From assembly GCA_027488935.1 (NCBI GenBank), contig JAIYAP010000017.1, positions 1 to 51,579 of the forward strand: 51,579 bases of DNA, written 5' to 3'. Under the pieces are notes generated by a model. It searched no databases and was not told the DNA's origin. It was given only the letters and a program-made list of their open reading frames with translations. The DNA is from Saprospiraceae bacterium (GTDB taxonomy: Bacteria > Bacteroidota > Bacteroidia > Chitinophagales > Saprospiraceae). Positions 41,085-51,579 of the stretch are shown here, piece after piece. Position numbers and translations under genes: made by a program. Position 1 is the stretch's first letter, and each line of letters starts with the position of its first letter.

Positions 41085-41143
41085 CGAATAAGTTTTATGA
41101 CAAAATAAATTTATAAAAACAGGAGGTGGCTAAAATAAAAGAA

Positions 41144-42637
41144 ATGGAAAATAATGAATTAACACTTGCCCGCAAAGAAATTGCCACTCAAAAAGAAGCG
41201 AATGAAAAACTTTCTGCTGAATTAATTTTGGTTCGGAAGGTGCTTGCCTTTCAGGATGAAGAGAAAGGGAAGCGGGCCGCTGAATTGGGTATTGCCAACA
41301 TCGAACTTGCTTATCAGGATGAAGAAAAAGAGAAAAGGGCTGTCGAGTTGGACATTGCCGACAAAGAACTTGCATATCAGGATGAAGAGAAAGGAAAACG
41401 GGCAGAAGAATTAGGCATTGCCAACATAGAACTTGCTTTTCAGAATAAAGAGAAAGAAAAACGAGCAGAAGAGTTGGGCGTTGCCAATAAAAAATTGGTA
41501 TTTGAAAATGAAGAAAAAGAAAAACGAGCCGCGGAATTGGGTGTTGCCAATAAAAAATTAGTCTTTGAAAATGAAGAAAAAGAAAAACGGGCAGCCGAGT
41601 TGGGTGTTGCTAATAAAAAATTAGTCTTTGAAAATGAAGAAAAAGAAAAACGAGCCGCGGAATTGGGCGTTGCCAATAAAAAATTAGTCTTTGAAAATGA
41701 AGAAAAAGGAAAACGGGCTGCAGAGTTAGTCATTGCAAATAAGGAACTTGCCTTTCAGAATGAAGAGAAAGAAAAACGGGCAGCCGAGTTAATCATTGCG
41801 AACAAAGAGCTTGCGTTTCAAAATGAAGAGAAAGAAAAGCGAGCAGCCGAGTTAGTCATTGCGAACAAAGAACTTGCCTTCCAAAATGAAGAGAAAGAAA
41901 AACGGGCAGATGAGCTGAGTATCGCTAATAAAGAGCTACTGGCATTCACTTATATTTCCAGTCACGATTTGCAAGAACCGCTACGAAAGATACAAACATT
42001 CGTTAGTATCATTTCTTCAAAAGAGGATAAAAATCTTACGGAGAATGGGAAATATAATTTCCAAAGAATCCAATTGGCTGCAGGAAGAATGCAATTGCTC
42101 ATTGACGATTTGCTTGCGTTCTCTCGCATCGCCACCACTGAATTGAAATTTGAAAATACGGACTTGGGAATCATCATTGAAGAAGTAAAAGCGGAATTAA
42201 AAGATACCATTTCAGAGAAACATGCAACCATCGAAGCAAACGAACTATGTAAAGCTAATATCATTCCATTTCAGTTTCGTCAGTTGTTGTATAACCTTAT
42301 TAGTAATGCCCTCAAGTTTTCTAATCCAGAAAAGAAATCGCACATAATAATAACAAGTAAAATTGAAAAAGGAAGTATATTGGATAATGCAAAGCTATCG
42401 CCTGGAAAAAGTTATTGCCATATTACAATCAAAGATAATGGTATTGGCTTCGAACCCCATTTCAGCGAACGTATATTTGGCGTGTTCCAGAAACTACACA
42501 GCAAAGAAACTTATGCAGGAACAGGCATCGGGCTTGCGATCGTAAAAAAAATAGTAGAGAATCATAATGGCATTATCACCGCAACAAGCGAATTAATGAA
42601 GGGATCTACGTTTGACATTTATATTCCAACTAAATAA
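41144..42637 (+). CDS. Histidine kinase with 21-residue coiled-coil repeats
   Basis: A 497-aa protein from ATG 41144; GTG 41126 would add six residues. Residues 32-262 are eleven 21-residue repeats such as KKLVFENEEKEKRAAELGVAN, charged and with heptad-like L/A spacing, predicting a long coiled coil. Then comes a DHp domain with SSHDLQEPLRKIQT (His274) and a HATPase: NLISNALKFSNP, DNGIGFEP, GTGIGLAIVKKIVENH. No TM or PAS domain is seen, so it is likely cytoplasmic. It should autophosphorylate and signal to the two receivers just upstream. The input is unknown and may come through the coiled coil. Confidence 0.92.
   Translation: MENNELTLARKEIATQKEANEKLSAELILVRKVLAFQDEEKGKRAAELGIANIELAYQDEEKEKRAVELDIADKELAYQDEEKGKRAEELGIANIELAFQNKEKEKRAEELGVANKKLVFENEEKEKRAAELGVANKKLVFENEEKEKRAAELGVANKKLVFENEEKEKRAAELGVANKKLVFENEEKGKRAAELVIANKELAFQNEEKEKRAAELIIANKELAFQNEEKEKRAAELVIANKELAFQNEEKEKRADELSIANKELLAFTYISSHDLQEPLRKIQTFVSIISSKEDKNLTENGKYNFQRIQLAAGRMQLLIDDLLAFSRIATTELKFENTDLGIIIEEVKAELKDTISEKHATIEANELCKANIIPFQFRQLLYNLISNALKFSNPEKKSHIIITSKIEKGSILDNAKLSPGKSYCHITIKDNGIGFEPHFSERIFGVFQKLHSKETYAGTGIGLAIVKKIVENHNGIITATSELMKGSTFDIYIPTK
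41237..41929 (+). repeat. 63-bp in-frame tandem repeat in the kinase gene
   Basis: Eleven direct repeats of 63 bp, each coding 21 residues (three heptads). Units 5-7 are nearly identical, pointing to recent expansion; the first and last units are more diverged. Copy number changes would keep the frame. Confidence 0.93.
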
Positions 42638-43017: not shown

Positions 43018-44613
43018 TTATTCAATAATAATTTTAGAGGAAACGGTATTTCCGGCTTTTGTACGCCCCGTTAAGATATAAAGCCCTTTGGGTAAGGATG
43101 GAATAGAAAATTGGCGGTCAGAAGATGATTGTAACCACTGATGTACCAAACGACCATCAAGTCCAATTAAACGGATCGGGGTGTTTTCGTCCAGCGTAAT
43201 ATCTTTTGAAATAGTAAAGTGATCATGGGCAGGATTTGGATAAACCTTAAACTGTTCGGCATTGCCTTTGGGAACTGAGCTTGAAACAAGCGGATCCAGG
43301 TAGTAGTATAATTCCGTATTTGTTCCGTTGAAACCGGCAAAAAAGATGATTTTATCGCCTAATACAACCAGATCACGTGGATCACTACTATAATTTAGAT
43401 CGAAGTCGAATGCTAAAGCGGCAGTGGTACCGTCTGTTTTCCATAATTCATTCTGGAAATTGGTGTTTCCGACAAGAAACAAATTGTTGCCATACGTAGC
43501 AAAAGGCACCGTGTTTGAATTAACTTTATTGGAATTGAAGGTAGTGATTCTTTGAGTTCCTAGATTGGTACCGTCCGAAATCCATAATTGCTCTTTACTA
43601 GATTGCTCTGAGGTAAAGATTAATTTAGACTGAAACGTATCCATTCGTACGATTTCATCATATATATTATTTGGATAAATATTTTTAACTAGTTTTGTTC
43701 CAGAAGATGTGCCATCTGTTGACCAAAGTTCAGCGTTTTCAGACTTAAAATAAAATTTCCCATTCAAATAAGCATAACTAGGAATATTATTTGCTAAATA
43801 ATAACTGACGCTATCTTTTACAATATGTGTACCATCGGTAGTACCATCTGTAATCCAAATTTCAGGTTTAGTACTTTTCCTAACATCGAAAAAAGCACCA
43901 ATTGGGGTACTTATAATTTTGTTTATTAAGATATTGGAGTTATCAGGGTCTAAACTTTTAATGGGAAACGTTCCTGCGCTTTGGCCGTTACTACGCCAAA
44001 GGTTAACACCTTGATTTGGTACATCTCCTAAAAAGTATAAAATCCCGTTATGTTCACTCAATATTTCCGGACTATAAACATACTTACCTTGGTTGTCAAT
44101 CACCGGAATTGTGCCCGTTATCGTTCCATCTGTTTTCCAGAGACAATTACCCGTGAGTGAAGAATATGCCTTAAAAAAGACATTATCACCAACCGTGACC
44201 ATTTCTTGGCCGAATCCAGTTATACCAAGCGATTTTAGCAGAATGGTTCCATCCACTGTTCCATCTGAAATGTACACATTATAAACGCTGTTATACTGTG
44301 CACCTATGATCACTTTTGTACCCAAATCGGAAAAGTTCGCGCTATATAGTGCTTTGTTACCTGGTGCAATATCTTTTAGCAAATAAGTGCCAGCAGTAGT
44401 ACCATCGGTGCGCCAAACTTCCACACCTTTTGATCCGTCATCGGCCAGGAAATACAAAATACCGTTGTTGACTAAGTAAGTATTGGAATATTGCGGGAAA
44501 CTGCCAAGCGTGTTGGTGGGATTGATTTCCTTGAGCAATTGAATTTTTTGACCTTGAAGATCAGAAGAAAAAAATAAAACTGCGACGCAAAAAAATGTAA
44601 TGATCAATTTCAT
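43018..44613 (-). CDS. T9SS protein with ELWxTDGTxxGT repeats
   Basis: A 531-aa secreted protein; ATG 44613 begins a signal peptide (MKLIITFFCVAVLFFSSDLQGQ). The body is made of repeated blade-like modules with VWRTDGTTAGTYLLKDI, LWKTDGTITGTIPV, LWRSNGQSAGTFPI, IWITDGTTDGTHIV, LWSTDGTSSGTKLV and LWISDGTNLGTQRI, typical of a large beta-propeller-like Bacteroidota surface family. The end is a T9SS sorting domain (FKVYPNPAHDHFTI, LPKGLYILTG, SSKIIIE). It should be exposed at the cell surface; the ligand is unknown. A good promoter lies 116 nt upstream. Confidence 0.88.
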   Translation of the reverse strand: MKLIITFFCVAVLFFSSDLQGQKIQLLKEINPTNTLGSFPQYSNTYLVNNGILYFLADDGSKGVEVWRTDGTTAGTYLLKDIAPGNKALYSANFSDLGTKVIIGAQYNSVYNVYISDGTVDGTILLKSLGITGFGQEMVTVGDNVFFKAYSSLTGNCLWKTDGTITGTIPVIDNQGKYVYSPEILSEHNGILYFLGDVPNQGVNLWRSNGQSAGTFPIKSLDPDNSNILINKIISTPIGAFFDVRKSTKPEIWITDGTTDGTHIVKDSVSYYLANNIPSYAYLNGKFYFKSENAELWSTDGTSSGTKLVKNIYPNNIYDEIVRMDTFQSKLIFTSEQSSKEQLWISDGTNLGTQRITTFNSNKVNSNTVPFATYGNNLFLVGNTNFQNELWKTDGTTAALAFDFDLNYSSDPRDLVVLGDKIIFFAGFNGTNTELYYYLDPLVSSSVPKGNAEQFKVYPNPAHDHFTISKDITLDENTPIRLIGLDGRLVHQWLQSSSDRQFSIPSLPKGLYILTGRTKAGNTVSSKIIIE

Positions 44614-44728
44614 ATAGATACGTTTAAGAGTTACGAATGAATAGTACTCATAATGACAATTATATTCCCAATACAATCTAATAGGTATTTTACAACAAGC
44701 GTTTTGAGCATTTATTGTCACTATACCA

Positions 44729-44866: not shown

Positions 44867-46060
44867 ATGCAATTGCAACCTACTTCGATACCCTCCGTTC
44901 CACATGAAGACCCAACCGGGTTGGACGGACAACAAAATCGCCTCGCGTTTTTAGAAACCCAAACTGGCACCACCCTACCCTATCTTACCAATATCCACGC
45001 TGGCACGGATTTGTCGCCGCTCAAAGGCAACATCGAAAACTACATCGGTATGAGTCAGGTGCCTACCGGGGTGATCGGTCCGTTGTGGGTGCGCGGACAA
45101 CATGCTGACGGACAGTTCTTTGTGCCCATGGCCACTTCGGAAGGGGCACTGGTCGCCAGTTACGGTCGGGGCGCCAAAGCCGTTACCCTTGCGGGCGGTG
45201 CGCGCGCGATTGTGATGGAGGAAAAAGTGCAGCGCTGTCCTTTGTTTCGCTTCGAAAATCTGGATCAGGTGATTCAATTTTGGGCATTTGTGCAGGAAAA
45301 CATGCCCCAAATGCGGGAATTAGTCGGAAAAATGAGCCGATTCGCCAAACTCATCAATATTGTGCCCAATGTGGAAGGCAACCAGATTATCCTCAGTTTT
45401 GAATACACCACAGGCGATGCTGCCGGACAAAATATGGTGACGATTTGTACCCAGGGGCTTTGCGAATGGCTGATCGAAAACATCCCGATGCAGCCGGTTT
45501 TCTGGTACATTGAGTCCAATTTTTCGGGCGATAAAAAAGCGGTGGGTGATTCGTTTACCCGTACGCGCGGGAAACGGGTGGTGGCCGAAGTGGTCATTCC
45601 CCGTGAAATTGTGGCCAAAGTGCTCAAAACCACCCCGGAAGCCCTCGAACGCTACTACGAAAATGCCACGTTGGCGGCCATGCAGGCGGGCGCATTGGGC
45701 ATTACCGGCCATTATGCCAACGGTTTGGCGGCGATTTTTATCGCTTGCGGACAAGATGTGGCTTGTGTGGCGGAAGCGACGGTGGGCGTGAACCGATTTG
45801 AGGTAACCCCGACCAAGGTGGGTGGCGATTTGTATTTGTCCGTTACCCTGCCCAATTTGATCGTGGGTACCGTGGGCGGCGGCACGCATTTGCCTACCCA
45901 GGCCGAGTGTCTGCGCCTGATGGGTTGCAGCGGACCTGGAACGGCCAATAAATTTGCAGAAATTACCGCAGTGGCCATCCTTTCCGGCGAATTGAGCATC
46001 ATCGCGGCCCTCGCGGAAGGCCAATTTACACAGGCACATAAAACCCTCGGACGCAAATGA
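44867..46060 (+). CDS. HMG-CoA reductase homologue
   Basis: A 397-aa class I-like hydroxymethylglutaryl-CoA reductase, the NADPH enzyme making mevalonate. Matching motifs: ENYIGMSQVPTGVIGPL, MATSEGALVASYGRGAK (Glu92), GDKKA (Lys223/224), TTGDAAGQNMV (Asp184), GTVGGGTHLPTQAECL and the C-terminal His391 (TQAHKTLGRK). All four catalytic residues are present, but DAMGMN has become DAAGQN and the region after it is unusual, so it may be a divergent branch. It is the first gene of a five-gene operon, and its stop overlaps the next start (ATGA). Confidence 0.85.
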   Translation: MQLQPTSIPSVPHEDPTGLDGQQNRLAFLETQTGTTLPYLTNIHAGTDLSPLKGNIENYIGMSQVPTGVIGPLWVRGQHADGQFFVPMATSEGALVASYGRGAKAVTLAGGARAIVMEEKVQRCPLFRFENLDQVIQFWAFVQENMPQMRELVGKMSRFAKLINIVPNVEGNQIILSFEYTTGDAAGQNMVTICTQGLCEWLIENIPMQPVFWYIESNFSGDKKAVGDSFTRTRGKRVVAEVVIPREIVAKVLKTTPEALERYYENATLAAMQAGALGITGHYANGLAAIFIACGQDVACVAEATVGVNRFEVTPTKVGGDLYLSVTLPNLIVGTVGGGTHLPTQAECLRLMGCSGPGTANKFAEITAVAILSGELSIIAALAEGQFTQAHKTLGRK

Positions 46061-46983
46061 AAACGGCTTTTTTGATGCGCTTTTGGCAATACCAGGCCGA
46101 GCGTTTTCCTTTTTTGGTACACGGTATTTTGATTGCGGTGTTCAGTTTTTCGGCCATTGCTTATTCCCGGATCTGCCGCGGACAAACAAATTTTATCGAT
46201 TGGCCGACCTACGGTGCAGCGGTTTTCTGTACCGTGACCCTCTTTCTATTGGTGCGTATTTTTGACGAGCATAAAGATGCCGAGGACGATGCGCAATTTC
46301 GGCCGGAATTGCCGGTGCCGCGGGGGCTGATTTCCCTGAAAGAATTACGGGTGGTGGGATTTGTGGTGTTTGCCGCCCAATTGCTGCTTGTGGGGCTGTT
46401 TTTTACCAAAATGCTGTTTCCCCTGGCGTTGGTGCTGGGCTATTTGTGCCTCATGGGCGTGGAATTTTTCATCCCCGACTGGCTGCGCAAACATCAGTTC
46501 TGGTACGTGACAAGCCACATGCTTATTATTCCGTTGGTGGATATTTTTGCCAGCGGATTTGACTGGTATTTGGGTGCTTATATCCCGCCCGAGGGCCTGA
46601 TTTTCTTTTTTGTAGTGTCTTATTTTAATGGAATAGTGCTTGAAATTGGAAGGAAAATTCGGTCTGAGGAAAAGGAAGCGCCTGGTGTTTTGACTTATAC
46701 CAGCATGCTAGGTATTCCCTTGGCGATTGCTTTGTGGCTGGCGGTGTTGTTGATTACCTTGCTGGCAGCCCTCAAAGCGGCTGATTTTGCCCATTTAGGC
46801 ATGGAAACCAGCATTTTTCTGGGGATTATGTTTGGAATTTGTGTGCTGCCTGCTTTGTTGTTTTTAAATAAACGCACTTCGAAAAATGCAAAAATGATCG
46901 AATATGCCTCTGCGGTGTGGACCCTGGTGATGTATGGGTCACTGGGCGGTGTGCCGATGTTGCGCTCTTTGTTATTTGGATAA
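46057..46983 (+). CDS. UbiA-superfamily prenyltransferase
   Basis: A 308-aa inner-membrane protein with about eight TM segments. The first Asp-rich motif is RIFDEHKDAEDDAQF (Asp70, Asp74, Asp78), followed by RPELPVPRGLIS, as in UbiA enzymes that bind prenyl diphosphate through Mg2+. The second motif region, EIGRKIRSEEKEAPGVLTYT, lacks the usual DxxxD, a feature of a poorly described UbiA branch. It should attach a prenyl chain to a small acceptor, such as a glycerol, aromatic or lipid head group. Start overlaps the HMGR stop by 4 nt. Confidence 0.85.
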   Translation: MKTAFLMRFWQYQAERFPFLVHGILIAVFSFSAIAYSRICRGQTNFIDWPTYGAAVFCTVTLFLLVRIFDEHKDAEDDAQFRPELPVPRGLISLKELRVVGFVVFAAQLLLVGLFFTKMLFPLALVLGYLCLMGVEFFIPDWLRKHQFWYVTSHMLIIPLVDIFASGFDWYLGAYIPPEGLIFFFVVSYFNGIVLEIGRKIRSEEKEAPGVLTYTSMLGIPLAIALWLAVLLITLLAALKAADFAHLGMETSIFLGIMFGICVLPALLFLNKRTSKNAKMIEYASAVWTLVMYGSLGGVPMLRSLLFG

Positions 46984-46992
46984 CCCTTTTAT

Positions 46993-49581
46993 ATGATCCT
47001 AACCAATCAAACCCTATTAAGTGCGCCGCCCGAGCAATTGGGGGGTAAGGCTGCGAATTTATGTCGACTGCAAAAAATGGGCTTTCGGGTGCCGCATTTT
47101 ATGGTTTTGCCCCAGGATACCCTGCAAAATTGGCTGGATCCTGCGCAAGATGTGGAGGCGCAAATCCGGGATTTTGTATTTCCCGGTGGCCTGACTTCCG
47201 AAATTTGCGGGAATTTCAAGTCTGATACGGCCTATTTTGCCGTGCGTTCCTCCGCGCAAAGCGAAGACAGCAGCGCGCATTCATTTGCCGGACAGTTTGA
47301 AACGAAATTATATGTGACGCCCGAGCAATTGCCGGAAGCCATTCGAGCCGTGTGGTTGTCGGCTTTTAGCGGACGGGTACACAGTTACGCTGACGAACGC
47401 GCGGTGCAACGACCTGTGGGCATCAGTGTGATTATCCAGGAAATGGTTGCGGCCGAAAAAGCAGGGGTTGCTTTTGGCATCCACCCTACCGAAGGCGATC
47501 GCTCGGCCAAGGTGATTTCTACGGTTTGGGGTCTGGGGGAAGGCCTGGTTTCGGGCGAACTGGATGCCGATACTTTTGTGGTACGTCAAGGCGGCTTCGA
47601 CCAAACATTAGCCAACAAGCCCTTTGGTTTGTATTACGATGCTGCGCAAAAAAAGGTTACAAAAACGGCCATTCCGGCTGAAAAACAAGACATTTCAACC
47701 TTAAACAGTATTGAAATTGCCCAAATCAATGCAGCCTTAGAGCAATTGCGCCAACAATTGGGACAGCCACAAGACATTGAGTTTGCCTTTGCCGATGGTC
47801 TGTTTTACTTGTTGCAAACACGGCCGATTACTCAATTGGATCGACTTACCGACCCTGCGGGAAGGCGTATGGTATGGGACAATTCCAATATTATCGAGTC
47901 GTATCCGGGCGTGACCACACCCCTCACGTTTTCCTTTATCATTCGCATGTACGAGGCCGTATATGTGCAATTGGCAGCATTATTGGGCGTTTCGGCACAA
48001 AAGGTAGCGGATCACCGGGCTACATTTGCCAATATGCTGGGTTTGTTGCGCGGTCGGGTGTATTACAACCTCGAATCGTGGTATGTTACTTTGTCGCTGG
48101 TGCCGGGTTATGCGGTGAATGCCCGTTTTATGGAAACGATGATGGGCGTAAAAGAGCGGTTTGATTTGCCACAGGAGCAAATTAGTCGCACGCGGGCCTG
48201 GTTGCGGCTCCTTCAATCGGTGTTAAAAATGATCGGCAGTTTGCTGCGCTTGTCGTCGGAGCGGACCAAATTCAAACACACGCTGGACGGCATTATCGCT
48301 GATTACAATGCCTGTGATTTTGATCAAATGTCGCCCCATCAATTGATGGAGCGCTACCTGTATTTTGAAGATTTTTTGGTAAAACGTTGGAAAGCGCCCT
48401 TGGTGAACGACTTTTTTGCCATGATTTATTTCGGTTTGCTTAAAAAGCAATGTGAAAAAATCAGTTCCGAAAGTGGCAATTTGCACAATGATTTGTTGGC
48501 GGGCAGTCGAGATATTGTGTCTACTGAGCCGGTTCGACGCATTTTGGACATTACGGCCACCGTGCTCGACCATACAGGAGCTGCAGATTTTTTTAAAAAT
48601 CATACCGCCCAGGAGGTCTATGAAAACTTATGGCAATGGCCTGATATTCAACAGAAAGTACAGGATTATCTTGCTACTTTTGGTGAGCGTACGGTAGGCG
48701 AATTGAAATTAGAAACGATCACCTACACCCAGGATCCGCTCAGTTTTATTGAAATTGTGCAAAGTTATGTAGCGCAGGGCATCCGCAAACGCTTGAGCAA
48801 CGAGGAGGAGCACATTCGCGCACAGGCGGAGGCGACCGCGCGGGCCGCTATGCGTGGGAAGCCGATCAAAGGGGCGTTATTTTGGTTTTTAGTACGCAAA
48901 ACCCGCATTTTGGTATCGGCCCGTGAAAATTTACGATACGAACGCACCCGCGGATTCGGGATGGTGCGGCGTATGTTTTTGGCCATCGGCAAACAATTTT
49001 ATGCCGAACATTTGATCGAACAGCCCCGCGACATATTCTACTTGACCCGCGATGAGATTTTTGACTTTATTAAAGGCACCTCAGTCAGTTTGCAAATCAA
49101 ACCACTCATCGCCTTGCGTCAGGCGGAGTATGCTCAATATGCGACGGAAGGTCCACTGGCAGAACGCATTATCACCCATGGCGTCGTGTACCATGCCAAT
49201 GATTTTAAATATACGGCAAGTGCACCTACCAGTGCTTCTGATGGTTCCGGCGTTTTAAAAGGCCTGGGCTGTTCTGCCGGAATTGTACGCGGCAGGGTGC
49301 GGGTGGTCCATCAGGCGCATGAAACCCGCTCGTTGGACGGGGATATTTTGGTGACCTCCTCGACCGATCCGGGCTGGGTAACCCTGTTCCCATCGGCTTC
49401 GGCCATTTTAGTAGAACGCGGCAGTTTGTTGAGTCACTCGGCAATTGTGTCGCGCGAATTGGGTATTCCATGTGTGGTGGGCATCAGCGGCTTGTTGCAA
49501 ACCCTGCAAACAGGAGATGTGGTAGAAATGGATGGCACGCGCGGCACCGTAACCGTTATTACACAAAACGCTCAACCATAA
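46993..49581 (+). CDS. PEP-synthase-like phosphotransferase (RPH architecture)
   Basis: An 862-aa protein. The N-terminal PPDK/PEP-synthase ATP-binding domain (about 1-280) has GGKAANLCRLQKMGF, VRSSAQSEDSSAHSFAGQFE and FADGLFYLLQTRPIT. A long central domain follows (VWDNSNIIESYPGVTTPLTF onward). The last ~100 residues are the mobile phosphohistidine domain (GCSAGIVRGRVRVV, LLSHSAIVSRELGIPCVVG, His815). The C-terminal PEP/pyruvate barrel is missing, as in rifampicin phosphotransferase of similar length (about 860-870 aa). It should split ATP and transfer a phosphate via the His to an acceptor other than pyruvate. Within an isoprenoid/lipid operon the acceptor may be a polyprenyl alcohol or lipid; this is inference. 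Confidence 0.85.
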   Translation: MILTNQTLLSAPPEQLGGKAANLCRLQKMGFRVPHFMVLPQDTLQNWLDPAQDVEAQIRDFVFPGGLTSEICGNFKSDTAYFAVRSSAQSEDSSAHSFAGQFETKLYVTPEQLPEAIRAVWLSAFSGRVHSYADERAVQRPVGISVIIQEMVAAEKAGVAFGIHPTEGDRSAKVISTVWGLGEGLVSGELDADTFVVRQGGFDQTLANKPFGLYYDAAQKKVTKTAIPAEKQDISTLNSIEIAQINAALEQLRQQLGQPQDIEFAFADGLFYLLQTRPITQLDRLTDPAGRRMVWDNSNIIESYPGVTTPLTFSFIIRMYEAVYVQLAALLGVSAQKVADHRATFANMLGLLRGRVYYNLESWYVTLSLVPGYAVNARFMETMMGVKERFDLPQEQISRTRAWLRLLQSVLKMIGSLLRLSSERTKFKHTLDGIIADYNACDFDQMSPHQLMERYLYFEDFLVKRWKAPLVNDFFAMIYFGLLKKQCEKISSESGNLHNDLLAGSRDIVSTEPVRRILDITATVLDHTGAADFFKNHTAQEVYENLWQWPDIQQKVQDYLATFGERTVGELKLETITYTQDPLSFIEIVQSYVAQGIRKRLSNEEEHIRAQAEATARAAMRGKPIKGALFWFLVRKTRILVSARENLRYERTRGFGMVRRMFLAIGKQFYAEHLIEQPRDIFYLTRDEIFDFIKGTSVSLQIKPLIALRQAEYAQYATEGPLAERIITHGVVYHANDFKYTASAPTSASDGSGVLKGLGCSAGIVRGRVRVVHQAHETRSLDGDILVTSSTDPGWVTLFPSASAILVERGSLLSHSAIVSRELGIPCVVGISGLLQTLQTGDVVEMDGTRGTVTVITQNAQP

Positions 49582-49589
49582 TTCATTAC

Positions 49590-50681
49590 GTGAAAAAACA
49601 ACTCGAAACCGTACGCCACGACTACGTCCGTTACGCCAATGTGTGGGAGGATGCGCAATTGCTGGTGCAAGGCCTGCAGGCCAAACCCGGCGCCAAACAC
49701 CTGAGTATCGCTAGCGGCGGCGACAATGCCCTGATGCTGTTGGCAGCCGATCCTGAAATGGTGGTGGCAGCCGATCTGAACAAGGCGCAATTGTTTTTGT
49801 GCGAATTGAAGCGGGCCGCCATCCGACACCTGGAATGCACTGAATATCAGGAATTTATAGGGCTACTGCCTTCCGAGTCGCGCCTGCACGTGTACACGCG
49901 TATCCGGGCAGACCTGCGCGGGGAAACCAAAGCATTTTGGGACGATCAGCAACAATTGATCGAAGATGGTTTGGTGCATGCGGGCAAGTTTGAACGGTAT
50001 TTTCGGATGTTTGCGCACCGTATTTTGCCCTTGATCCATTCGCAGCGCTCGGTAAAAGCCTTGGTAGCACCCAAAAGTGCGGAAGAGCAGGCGCTTTTTT
50101 ACGATCAGCATTGGAATACCTGGCGTTGGCGCTTTTTGTTCAATGTATTTTTTTCCAAAACCGTGATGGGCTGGTTGGGGCGCGATCCGGCTTTTTTGAA
50201 ACAGGTTGAAGTGCATGTAGGGGAGTTTATTTTTCAAAAAGCAGCGCTGCATTTGAAATCGGTGGATGCCCAGGATAATTTCATTTTGCGGTATAATTTG
50301 ACCGGAAGTTTTGGGAATTTGGTGCCCGATTATGCCATGCCGGAAAATTACAACCGCATTCGAGCCAATATTGGACGCTTGTTTTTTTACGAGGGTCTGG
50401 CGGAAACAGCGATCCATAAATACGGAAAATTCGACGGATTTAACTTGTCTGATATTTTTGAATACATGGATGTGCCCACATTTCGGCAGGTGGGGGCGGT
50501 GCTGGCGGAAGGCGCGAATCCGGGTGCGCGGGTGTGTTACTGGAATTTGATGGTACACCGCAATTTGGCCGAAGATTTGCCCGATCTTTTCCTGGATCTG
50601 CCTGATTTATCGGCACGTTTAACCGCCGAAGACCGTGGTTTCTTTTATCACCGATTCATTGTCAATCAAATACCTGTTTAA
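49590..50681 (+). CDS. DUF3419 / BtaA-like aminocarboxypropyl transferase
   Basis: A 363-aa protein with GTG start at 49590, 8 nt after the previous stop. It matches DUF3419, the BtaA family: VRYANVWEDAQLLVQGL, HLSIASGGDNALMLLA (SAM-binding), AADLNKAQLFLCELK, and in the C-terminal half NRIRANIGRLFFYEGLAE and VCYWNLMVHRN. BtaA transfers the 3-amino-3-carboxypropyl group of SAM to the hydroxyl of diacylglycerol, the first step to betaine lipids. No BtaB N-methyltransferase is next to it. Here it may act on a prenylated glycerol or similar. Confidence 0.87.
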   Translation: MKKQLETVRHDYVRYANVWEDAQLLVQGLQAKPGAKHLSIASGGDNALMLLAADPEMVVAADLNKAQLFLCELKRAAIRHLECTEYQEFIGLLPSESRLHVYTRIRADLRGETKAFWDDQQQLIEDGLVHAGKFERYFRMFAHRILPLIHSQRSVKALVAPKSAEEQALFYDQHWNTWRWRFLFNVFFSKTVMGWLGRDPAFLKQVEVHVGEFIFQKAALHLKSVDAQDNFILRYNLTGSFGNLVPDYAMPENYNRIRANIGRLFFYEGLAETAIHKYGKFDGFNLSDIFEYMDVPTFRQVGAVLAEGANPGARVCYWNLMVHRNLAEDLPDLFLDLPDLSARLTAEDRGFFYHRFIVNQIPV

Positions 50682-51335
50682 ATGTCTGTCCAAACCCAAC
50701 ATCTGCTTTTGCTGAGCATCGCCTATTTGGTGTTGTTTGGTATTTGTGAATATTTGTACCATGTTCGACATTGGCAAACCGAAAATACGCGCAAAGTAGC
50801 GCATGCGGGTTCGGGTTTGTTGGCCCTGAGTTTTCCGTTCATTTTTCAGGATTACCGGTATGTGGTGCTTATTTGCGCCTTGTTTTTGGTCATTTTGATC
50901 ATTACCAAATACACGGGCTTGTTGCGGTCCATTCACGCGGTGGCGCGGGTGACGTACGGCAGTTCAATGTTTCCGATCGTGGTGTCTATTTGTTTTTGGT
51001 TTTACAGCCGGGATCAGGATTTGATCAAATTTTATTTGCCCATTTTGGTAATGGCCTTGGCCGATCCTGCGGCTTGTTTGTTTGGCCGGCAATTTCCGCT
51101 AGCGAAGCTGTATAAGAAGAAAACCCTGGGTGGGTCGCTGGCCTTTTTTGCAACCGCTTTGTTTTTGGGATTGCTGTGTTTTAGCATCTTCCAAACAGGC
51201 GCCAGTCTTGATAAGTGGTTGTATAAGTGTGTGTTACTGGCCTTGTGTACTACCCTGGCCGAGGCATTTTCCCAAAAAGGCAGCGATAATCTGACGATTC
51301 CTTTGAGTGCGTTGGGGGTGCTGGCTTGGGTTTAG
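50682..51335 (+). CDS. Phytol/dolichol-kinase-like membrane protein
   Basis: A 217-aa inner-membrane protein with about six TM segments. It resembles the VTE5/SEC59 and CDP-diglyceride synthase-like superfamily: TRKVAHAGSGLLAL near the N-terminus, MALADPAACLFGRQFP, KKKTLGGSLAFF and LAEAFSQKGSDNLTIPLSAL, the last being the D-N-L-x-x-P motif of phytol kinases. Such enzymes phosphorylate long-chain isoprenoid alcohols using CTP, or form CDP-lipids. Its ATG directly follows the BtaA-like stop. It closes the five-gene operon; a tandem repeat begins 22 nt later. Confidence 0.82.
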   Translation: MSVQTQHLLLLSIAYLVLFGICEYLYHVRHWQTENTRKVAHAGSGLLALSFPFIFQDYRYVVLICALFLVILIITKYTGLLRSIHAVARVTYGSSMFPIVVSICFWFYSRDQDLIKFYLPILVMALADPAACLFGRQFPLAKLYKKKTLGGSLAFFATALFLGLLCFSIFQTGASLDKWLYKCVLLALCTTLAEAFSQKGSDNLTIPLSALGVLAWV

Positions 51336-51356
51336 GGGCCTTTAGTATCGGGAAAG

Positions 51357-51579
51357 TGACACCTCGGGAGATGACACCTCGGGAGATGACACCTCGGGAG
51401 ATGACACCTCGGGAGATGACACCTCGGGGAGATGACACCTCGGGAGATGATACCTCGGGAGATGATACCTCGGGAAGGTGACACCTCGGGGAGATGACAC
51501 CTCGGGGAGATGACACCTCGGGGAGGTGACACCTCGGGGAGATGACACCTCGGGGAGATGACACCTCGGGGAGATGACA
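51357..51579. repeat. 15/16-bp tandem repeat (runs off window end)
   Basis: At least 14 units of TGACACCTCGGG(G)AGA, in 15- and 16-bp versions, run from 51357 to the last base and continue beyond. The units are near-palindromic (CACCTC-GGG-GAGGTG in some copies). The mixed lengths mean no steady reading frame, so it is not coding. It starts 22 nt after the operon's last stop codon. Confidence 0.95.

Follow-up and report, generated by a model that had tools for sequence, protein, structure and literature searches.

A conserved operon with an HMG-CoA reductase-like gene in Saprospiraceae and other bacteria, a candidate amino-lipid pathway

Described lipid pathways and the operon in the window

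The operon reported here lies at positions 44867-51335 of a Saprospiraceae contig of 51,579 nt (JAIYAP010000017.1, assembly GCA_027488935.1), which in its whole length we call the window, and it starts with a gene for a protein resembling 3-hydroxy-3-methylglutaryl-coenzyme A (HMG-CoA) reductase (HMGR). The closest described systems share parts of it. In betaine-lipid synthesis by BtaA and BtaB, which has the DUF3419 family in common with the operon, BtaA makes diacylglycerol-O-homoserine from S-adenosylmethionine (SAM), as described in PMC10685587, whereas the operon has no linked BtaB-type methyltransferase, the genome's other DUF3419 copy having one. Bacterial ceramide synthesis is described in PMC11324152 with serine palmitoyltransferase (SPT), CerR and the N-acyltransferase CerS; the GNAT protein of the operon is a paralogue of a GNAT encoded beside SPT and an epimerase, but no SPT is present among the operon genes, and the amine would derive from SAM, not from serine. 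Points of contact with the archaeal ether-lipid pathway are a profile match of the UbiA-like protein to digeranylgeranylglyceryl phosphate (DGGGP) synthase and CarS/CDP-alcohol neighbours in some relatives, whereas the operon has no geranylgeranylglyceryl phosphate synthase among its genes and has HMGR-like, RPH-like, DUF3419, GNAT and ligase genes in addition. Rifampin phosphotransferase (RPH) has its fold and its architecture of ATP-grasp, acceptor region and swivel histidine in common with the RPH-like protein, which is, however, only 21% identical to it in the fold alignment. The class I HMG-CoA reductases share the fold and the catalytic residues of the HMGR-like protein, which differs from them at the substrate site, in its place in the tree and in its genomic context.

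The operon is a conserved, real unit and apparently an undescribed one. The original prediction, made from the letters of the window, knew of no described pathway combining these families, and we likewise found none in the open-access literature, subscription papers and preprints lying outside the search; the lipocone paper (PMC12419801), in its accessible text, describes other neighbourhoods. Of the new results, the strongest is that the HMGR-like protein combines an altered substrate site with presence in genomes of the methylerythritol phosphate (MEP) pathway type. The features of the window are as follows.

44867-46060, + strand: HMGR-like gene, 397 aa
46057-46983, + strand: gene for a UbiA-superfamily-like membrane protein, 308 aa, overlapping the HMGR-like gene by 4 nt
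46993-49581, + strand: gene for an RPH-type (phosphoenolpyruvate (PEP)-synthase/RPH-like) phosphotransferase, 862 aa, 9 nt after the UbiA-like gene
49590-50681, + strand: DUF3419/BtaA-like gene, GTG start, 8 nt after the RPH-like gene
50682-51335, + strand: gene for a CTP_transf_1/phytol-kinase-like membrane protein, 217 aa, directly after the DUF3419 gene (gap 0)
51348-51579, no strand: 16-bp tandem repeat, called by Tandem Repeats Finder (TRF), at the contig break, which presumably falls within the operon

The coordinates of the open reading frames (ORFs) bear out the earlier claim of five head-to-tail genes separated by -4, 9, 8 and 0 nt; all five are on the + strand, and the operon appears to begin at the HMGR-like gene, because the upstream ORF (43018-44721, - strand) is divergent. 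The five genes do form a real unit, but the set is longer than was predicted: contig C57 of the window's genome opens, behind a similar repeat, with ORFs for a GNAT-like protein (C57:71-1102) and an AMP-forming ligase (AMP-ligase; C57:1106-2635), and we infer an operon of seven genes, the contig join being taken from the gene order in relatives.

Substrate site and genomic context of the HMGR-like protein

The HMGR-like protein matches Pfam HMG-CoA_red (PF00368) with 371.5 bits, and its best match in the PDB is 6hr7; with the curated model TIGR00533 it scores 327.4 bits, under the cut-off of 441.8. It retains the catalytic residues Glu92, Lys223, Asp297 and His391, and it has Glu216 (codon 45512-45514) at the position of human Ser684, Asn266 at Lys735 and Gln188 at Met657. 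We extended this comparison, in human numbering, to 80 sequences, namely the window and 79 loci of relatives (L023, for which the ORF calls contain no HMGR ORF, is absent). Glu occupies position 684 in 80/80, Lys735 is present in 0/80, the residue there being non-basic, and Met657 is replaced by Gln in 79/80. The catalytic residues are Lys691 (80/80), Asp767 (80/80), Glu559 (79/80) and His866 (79/79 covered). Ser684 and Lys735 are both kept in all eight class I controls, which are human 1dq8, 8ecg, which we take to be the Arabidopsis HMGR, 6hr7, presumably the HMGR of an archaeon, and five Streptomyces HMGRs whose neighbouring genes carry the annotations mevalonate kinase, diphosphomevalonate decarboxylase and HMG-CoA synthase. 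In the tree that FastTree built from 100 sequences, the eight controls were separated from the other 92 with support of 0.991. Lys735 forms a salt bridge to the terminal carboxylate of the HMG part of a statin and Ser684 makes a polar contact, as reported in PMC9500038, and Met657 is part of the NAD(P)-binding DAMGMN motif according to PMC3875450. Because the residues holding the usual substrate (Ser684 and Lys735) are lost, the HMGR-like protein is most likely not a normal HMG-CoA reductase and does a different job.

Glu684 was found also in eight relatives outside the 80 (G021, G049, G057, G108, G120, G253, G302 and L137), L137 being an unannotated copy on a Streptomyces plasmid. Ten of 39 matching plasmid records were examined, of which five are the Streptomyces mevalonate-cluster controls and five were not used as controls. 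The HMGR-like proteins of Photobacterium and Vibrio plasmids (L133, L138) carry Asp and Met at positions 684 and 735, respectively, an Alteromonas plasmid copy has Ala at 684, and that of a Sinorhizobium plasmid (L135), found in a cluster with acyl-CoA carboxylase genes, is divergent and unaligned at 684. The second HMGR copies present in some carrier genomes were unsuitable as residue controls, since their cis loop is unalignable and TIGR00532, a model of degradative HMGR that we take to be class II, describes those 10 that were scanned.

The isoprenoid context was examined in 33 hand-picked genomes carrying the HMGR-like gene, by searching for HMGR, Dxr and mevalonate decarboxylase (TIGR01240); the last was the sole mevalonate-pathway enzyme searched besides HMGR, with HMG-CoA synthase and mevalonate kinase outside the search. 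No strong TIGR01240 match (at most 29 bits) was found in 18 of the 33, all of which have a Dxr match, one of them partial and below the cut-off. A single HMGR gene is present in 17 of these 18 MEP-type carriers, and the exception (G077) has two HMGR genes, one in the L055 locus and the other in a full operon. The other 15 carriers have a strong decarboxylase match (157-185 bits; 3 over the curated cut-off) and, in every case, a second HMGR; among the 10 second HMGRs scanned, TIGR00532 is the only NCBIfam match at E<=1e-20, with 8 of the 10 exceeding its cut-off. G068 and G070 combine Dxr with a strong decarboxylase match. The window's genome has a separate TIGR00532-type HMGR and a mevalonate-decarboxylase match of 160.7 bits (cut-off 171.35), and the search gave no Dxr match in it.

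The supply of mevalonate, which had been predicted for the operon gene, is not supported by these results and is disfavoured, because the carriers either have no strong decarboxylase match or possess a second HMGR. A highly improbable explanation in our judgement is, therefore, that the HMGR-like enzyme makes mevalonate for the prenyl diphosphates of an isoprenoid lipid that other enzymes complete; the HMG-CoA_red match, the catalytic residues and the strong UbiA-type matches, which all adjoin an HMGR-like gene, are consistent with it, but it is opposed by the complete loss of Ser684 and Lys735 and by both classes of carriers. The single HmgR genes of MEP-pathway Streptomyces are flagged as needing study in the accessible text of PMC13001223. 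A set of "HMG-CoA reductases" in MEP-pathway bacteria probably does not have this activity, with consequences for how pathways are annotated.

Conservation of the gene set and its protein families

Loci were obtained by scanning genome contigs with the HMGR-like protein as query, and the best 80 of 156 relatives were analysed; these are not independent, several coming from one genus, and the family alignments were limited to sequences of 0.75-1.4 times the median length. The gene-neighbourhood check suggested with the original prediction has found the set conserved outside this genome: 37 of the 80 loci contain all seven genes in a span of 8.6-11.3 kb, in one order and on one strand in 36 of these, the remaining one (L041) having an inverted block. 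Six of the seven, without GNAT, are present in two Omnitrophota (L070 and L090), in Tritonobacter (L085), where part of the set is on the opposite strand, and in "bacterium SKW172" (L075). The seven genes are permuted in G302 (GNAT, ligase, HMGR-like, UbiA-like, RPH-like, DUF3419 and kinase). When only the 63 loci having at least 9 kb downstream are counted, the full set is found in 36 and is incomplete in 27, of which 13 are from Flavobacterium, and in 12 of these 13 only the HMGR-like gene is present. Direct neighbours are kinase and GNAT in 36 loci, GNAT and ligase in 28, DUF3419 and kinase in 36, and UbiA-like and RPH-like in 38.

In a survey of 296 Bacteroidota genomes with a completeness of 90% or more, 26 were matched by the HMGR-like profile and 9 by the UbiA profile (E<=1e-20). 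Eight of the latter are strong and all adjoin an HMGR-like gene, in four genera (g1, g25, g68 and g124) and with the window's genome included; the ninth (G235, 124 bits) has no adjoining HMGR-like gene. The first search of relatives matched 11 of 60 genomes, the weakest match (G054, E 1.5e-5) being doubtful. The distribution of the operon is patchy, yet its genes are kept together, in many Bacteroidota and also in a small number of distant bacteria. It occurs in named Dyadobacter, Sphingobacterium and Parapedobacter strains, as a compact candidate pathway the product of which can be sought by comparing lipidomes.

Some relatives have further lipid genes: 11 of the 37 complete loci also have a CDP-alcohol phosphatidyltransferase and a CdsA-like (in some relatives CarS-like) gene, and 1 more has the CDP-alcohol phosphatidyltransferase alone. 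The HMGR-like and CDP-alcohol genes are adjacent in 14 loci, and in L051, L058 and L063 the HMGR-like gene is paired only with kinase, CDP-alcohol and CdsA-like genes. G021 (L104:10130-12445) encodes a fusion of an HMGR-like domain with an APH-type kinase; the gene adjoins one for a CDP-alcohol phosphatidyltransferase, and UbiA-like and RPH-like genes belong to the same locus. The ligase directly precedes, abutting or overlapping, the HMGR-like ORF in L070, L090 and L132, where ORF starts are mechanical. This fusion and this position of the ligase suggest that an acid may be activated, reduced to an alcohol and then phosphorylated.

The same fusion and adjacency, with the altered charge at the substrate site, could also be explained if the HMGR-like enzyme produced a small head-group alcohol, e.g. 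an amino alcohol, which, once phosphorylated, would serve the CDP-alcohol phosphatidyltransferase, while the rest of the operon builds the lipid that receives it. Known PhyK- and CdsA-family enzymes act on lipids, however, and a CDP-alcohol gene is missing from 25 of the 37 complete loci, and we regard this explanation as possible but rather unlikely. The HMGR-like gene is present also in genomes without DUF3419 or the other operon genes and is hence not bound to a single product; several pathways probably make use of the reductase, with substrates that may be different in each.

Concerning the family labels of the original prediction, those of the HMGR-like, RPH-type and DUF3419 proteins stood, while the UbiA label is based on an NCBIfam match below the cut-off (PRK05951, E 3.7e-17) and a profile match, and the kinase label on a marginal Pfam match. 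The profile of the UbiA-like family has DGGGP synthase (6m31, E 1.5e-8) as its best PDB match, and two acidic motifs, DExKDxxxD (residues 70-78) and ExxRKxxxxxxE (196-207), are invariant in 16/16 sequences. The RPH-like protein matches PPDK_N (188 bits) and PEP-utilizers (83 bits) only, with no Pfam match to the PEP/pyruvate barrel. It has an ATP-grasp domain (69-284), an acceptor region and a swivel domain with an invariant His815 (codon 49435-49437). Its AlphaFold2 model (predicted local distance difference test, pLDDT, 85.4; predicted template modelling score, pTM, 0.67) gave rifampin phosphotransferase 5hv1 as the best fold match along its length (E 3.6e-41, TM-score 0.49), whereas PEP synthase matched over 351 columns only; from pTM and TM-score, the predicted packing of the domains is uncertain. 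The curated rifamycin phosphotransferase model NF041857 gives 269.8 bits and its cut-off of 999 is not reached.

These two proteins bear on two further explanations. An archaeal-like mixed ether lipid, with a prenyl ether formed by the UbiA-like protein, finishing by CarS/CdsA-like and CDP-alcohol enzymes, and a backbone alcohol from the HMGR-like enzyme and the kinase, is in line with the DGGGP synthase match, with the CarS-like neighbour gene of L030 and with the CDP-alcohol enzyme of L016, which scores on archaetidyl models below their cut-offs. The best NCBIfam matches of that enzyme are, however, cardiolipin synthase and PgsA, also below cut-off, and DUF3419, GNAT and ligase would be left unexplained; such a lipid seems to us quite unlikely. 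Relatives of the RPH type include the prodigiosin ligases PigC and RedH, whose NCBIfam models the RPH-like protein matches with 295-298 bits, far under the cut-offs of 1300-1350, and this, with the patchy distribution of the HMGR-like profile, could point to a prenylated, acylated secondary metabolite instead of a membrane lipid. We consider that very unlikely, since several of the enzymes are of lipid-head-group type and inspection by eye of the shared gene clusters, where no dedicated search was made, showed no operon-linked gene of polyketide, peptide-synthetase or export type.

The DUF3419 protein matches PF11899 with 204.4 bits (cut-off 28.2), and a search for a structure of this family gave nothing useful. 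It is 18% identical to the genome's own BtaA-type copy and belongs to a distinct subfamily; for the DUF3419 proteins of the operon in general, identity to the genome's other copy is 16-23%. A methyltransferase gene lies beside the other-type copies in three genomes, as expected of btaA-btaB pairs, and none was found among the operon genes of the window or C57. A separate DUF3419 and methyltransferase pair in the window's genome (L126:5503-7440, on C57) is likely btaA-btaB. The ORF finder placed the start of the window's DUF3419 gene at an upstream ATG (49470), inside the RPH-like gene; the start at 49590 is favoured by that of a relative (L013).

The GNAT of the same relative was modelled with a pLDDT of 88.7 and matches tandem GNATs. 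The operon-GNAT profile matches (E 1.6e-34) a GNAT on contig C83 of the window's genome, which lies between serine palmitoyltransferase (NF047600, 671.5 bits, cut-off 640) and an epimerase. This group (L120:7494-10920) is likely a sphingolipid operon of the genome, and the putative link from GNAT to CerS is drawn from the position beside SPT and from the account in PMC11324152. The C57 ligase matches PF00501 AMP-binding with 143 bits.

The phytol-kinase-like protein, which also resembles dolichol kinases, matches PF01148 CTP_transf_1 with 25.3 bits against a cut-off of 24, and it is by this marginal family match a putative CTP-dependent lipid-alcohol kinase. As a separate observation, the kinase-like protein is extended to 433-481 aa in L066, L070, L075, L085 and L090 by a second, C-terminal half resembling a membrane protein, for which our searches gave no convincing family. 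A CoA-enzyme-activase-type protein of 1427-1441 aa lies beside operon genes in L066 and L070, with BcrAD_BadFG and DUF2229 domains in L066, the one scanned.

Candidate pathway and minor observations

Our preferred reading, to which we give about an even chance, is that the operon makes an amino-lipid, so far undescribed, by a pathway of its own that includes an NADPH-type thioester reductase derived from HMGR and works in six steps. The AMP-ligase would activate a carboxylic acid to an adenylate or thioester, and the HMGR-like enzyme would carry out a four-electron reduction of an acyl-thioester, other than HMG-CoA, to a primary alcohol. This alcohol would be phosphorylated by the CTP-type kinase and, judging from gene association, might in some genomes be carried on by CdsA/CarS-like and CDP-alcohol enzymes. 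DUF3419 would transfer the 3-amino-3-carboxypropyl (homoserine) group from SAM to a hydroxyl of a presumed acceptor. The GNAT and ligase genes, which lie on another contig and so were hidden from the original prediction, suggest acylation of the amine: GNAT, by its paralogy, may N-acylate the amine, replacing the N-methylation of betaine lipids, just as its SPT-linked paralogue is expected to N-acylate in ceramide synthesis. In the sixth and weakest step, the UbiA-like and RPH-like pair might transfer and/or phosphorylate a prenyl-type chain. The homoserine-type head group of the original prediction fits the DUF3419 family, but as the product it is unproven.

Several points weigh against this reading. 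A product of lipid type is likely, but the product and the substrate of the HMGR-like enzyme are read from the genes alone, and the order of the steps is guesswork. The UbiA-like protein gave no Pfam match in the family search, and the L013 ligase resembles OleC and fatty-acid ligases below NCBIfam cut-offs among its 25 best matches. In L028 and L049 the surroundings of the operon yielded no ligase. The GNAT profile gave no match in G081, G083 and G084, to which L070, L075 and L090 belong, and one of only paralogue level in G082, to which L085 belongs; some of the absences fall in fragmented metagenome-assembled genomes. The Flavobacterium HMGR-like genes have the same Glu684 without other operon genes nearby, Glu684 is absent from four sequences that the tree places with the HMGR-like ones, and 16 of 27 HMGR-like carriers, a set enriched for such loci, have no DUF3419 match at all. 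G021 is a 17th carrier without the operon-type DUF3419, having a BtaA-type copy only. Genomes of the DUF3419 survey (44) and the GNAT survey (30) were hand-picked.

A more specific form of the amino-lipid pathway, which we hold to be unlikely, is a pseudo-ceramide with a 2-amino-1,4-butanediol ("homoserinol") backbone, N-acylated by GNAT and phosphorylated by the kinase. DUF3419 would put the SAM-derived amino acid on a lipid alcohol, the ligase would activate its carboxylate and the HMGR-like enzyme would reduce this to an alcohol, the invariant Glu684 holding an ammonium where HMG-CoA reductase holds a carboxylate. Action of the HMGR-like enzyme only on the DUF3419 product is weakened by the 16 carriers without a DUF3419 match. 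A novel head group or backbone in the product of the amino-lipid pathway would mean an extra membrane-lipid class in Bacteroidota; if the pseudo-ceramide were true, the backbone of the new class would differ from both glycerol and the sphingoid bases.

Concerning the contig end, the window stops at 51579 within the 16-bp repeat found by TRF, shortly after the phytol-kinase-like gene. This repeat family is dispersed in the genome, with 68 pattern matches on 13 contigs (C4, C9, C24, C43, C49, C52, C55, C57, C60, C68, C73, C74 and C75), several at contig starts or ends. The repeat alone was rejected as proof of the join with C57 because of this dispersal, and the join rests on the gene order in relatives. 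In G004, a genome of the same genus, kinase, GNAT and ligase follow in this order on a single contig, which begins inside the RPH-like gene; the relatives search found no HMGR-like match in this assembly. Upstream of the operon, the window ORF 41126-42637 is histidine-kinase-like by eye and has many near-identical repeats in its N-terminal half.

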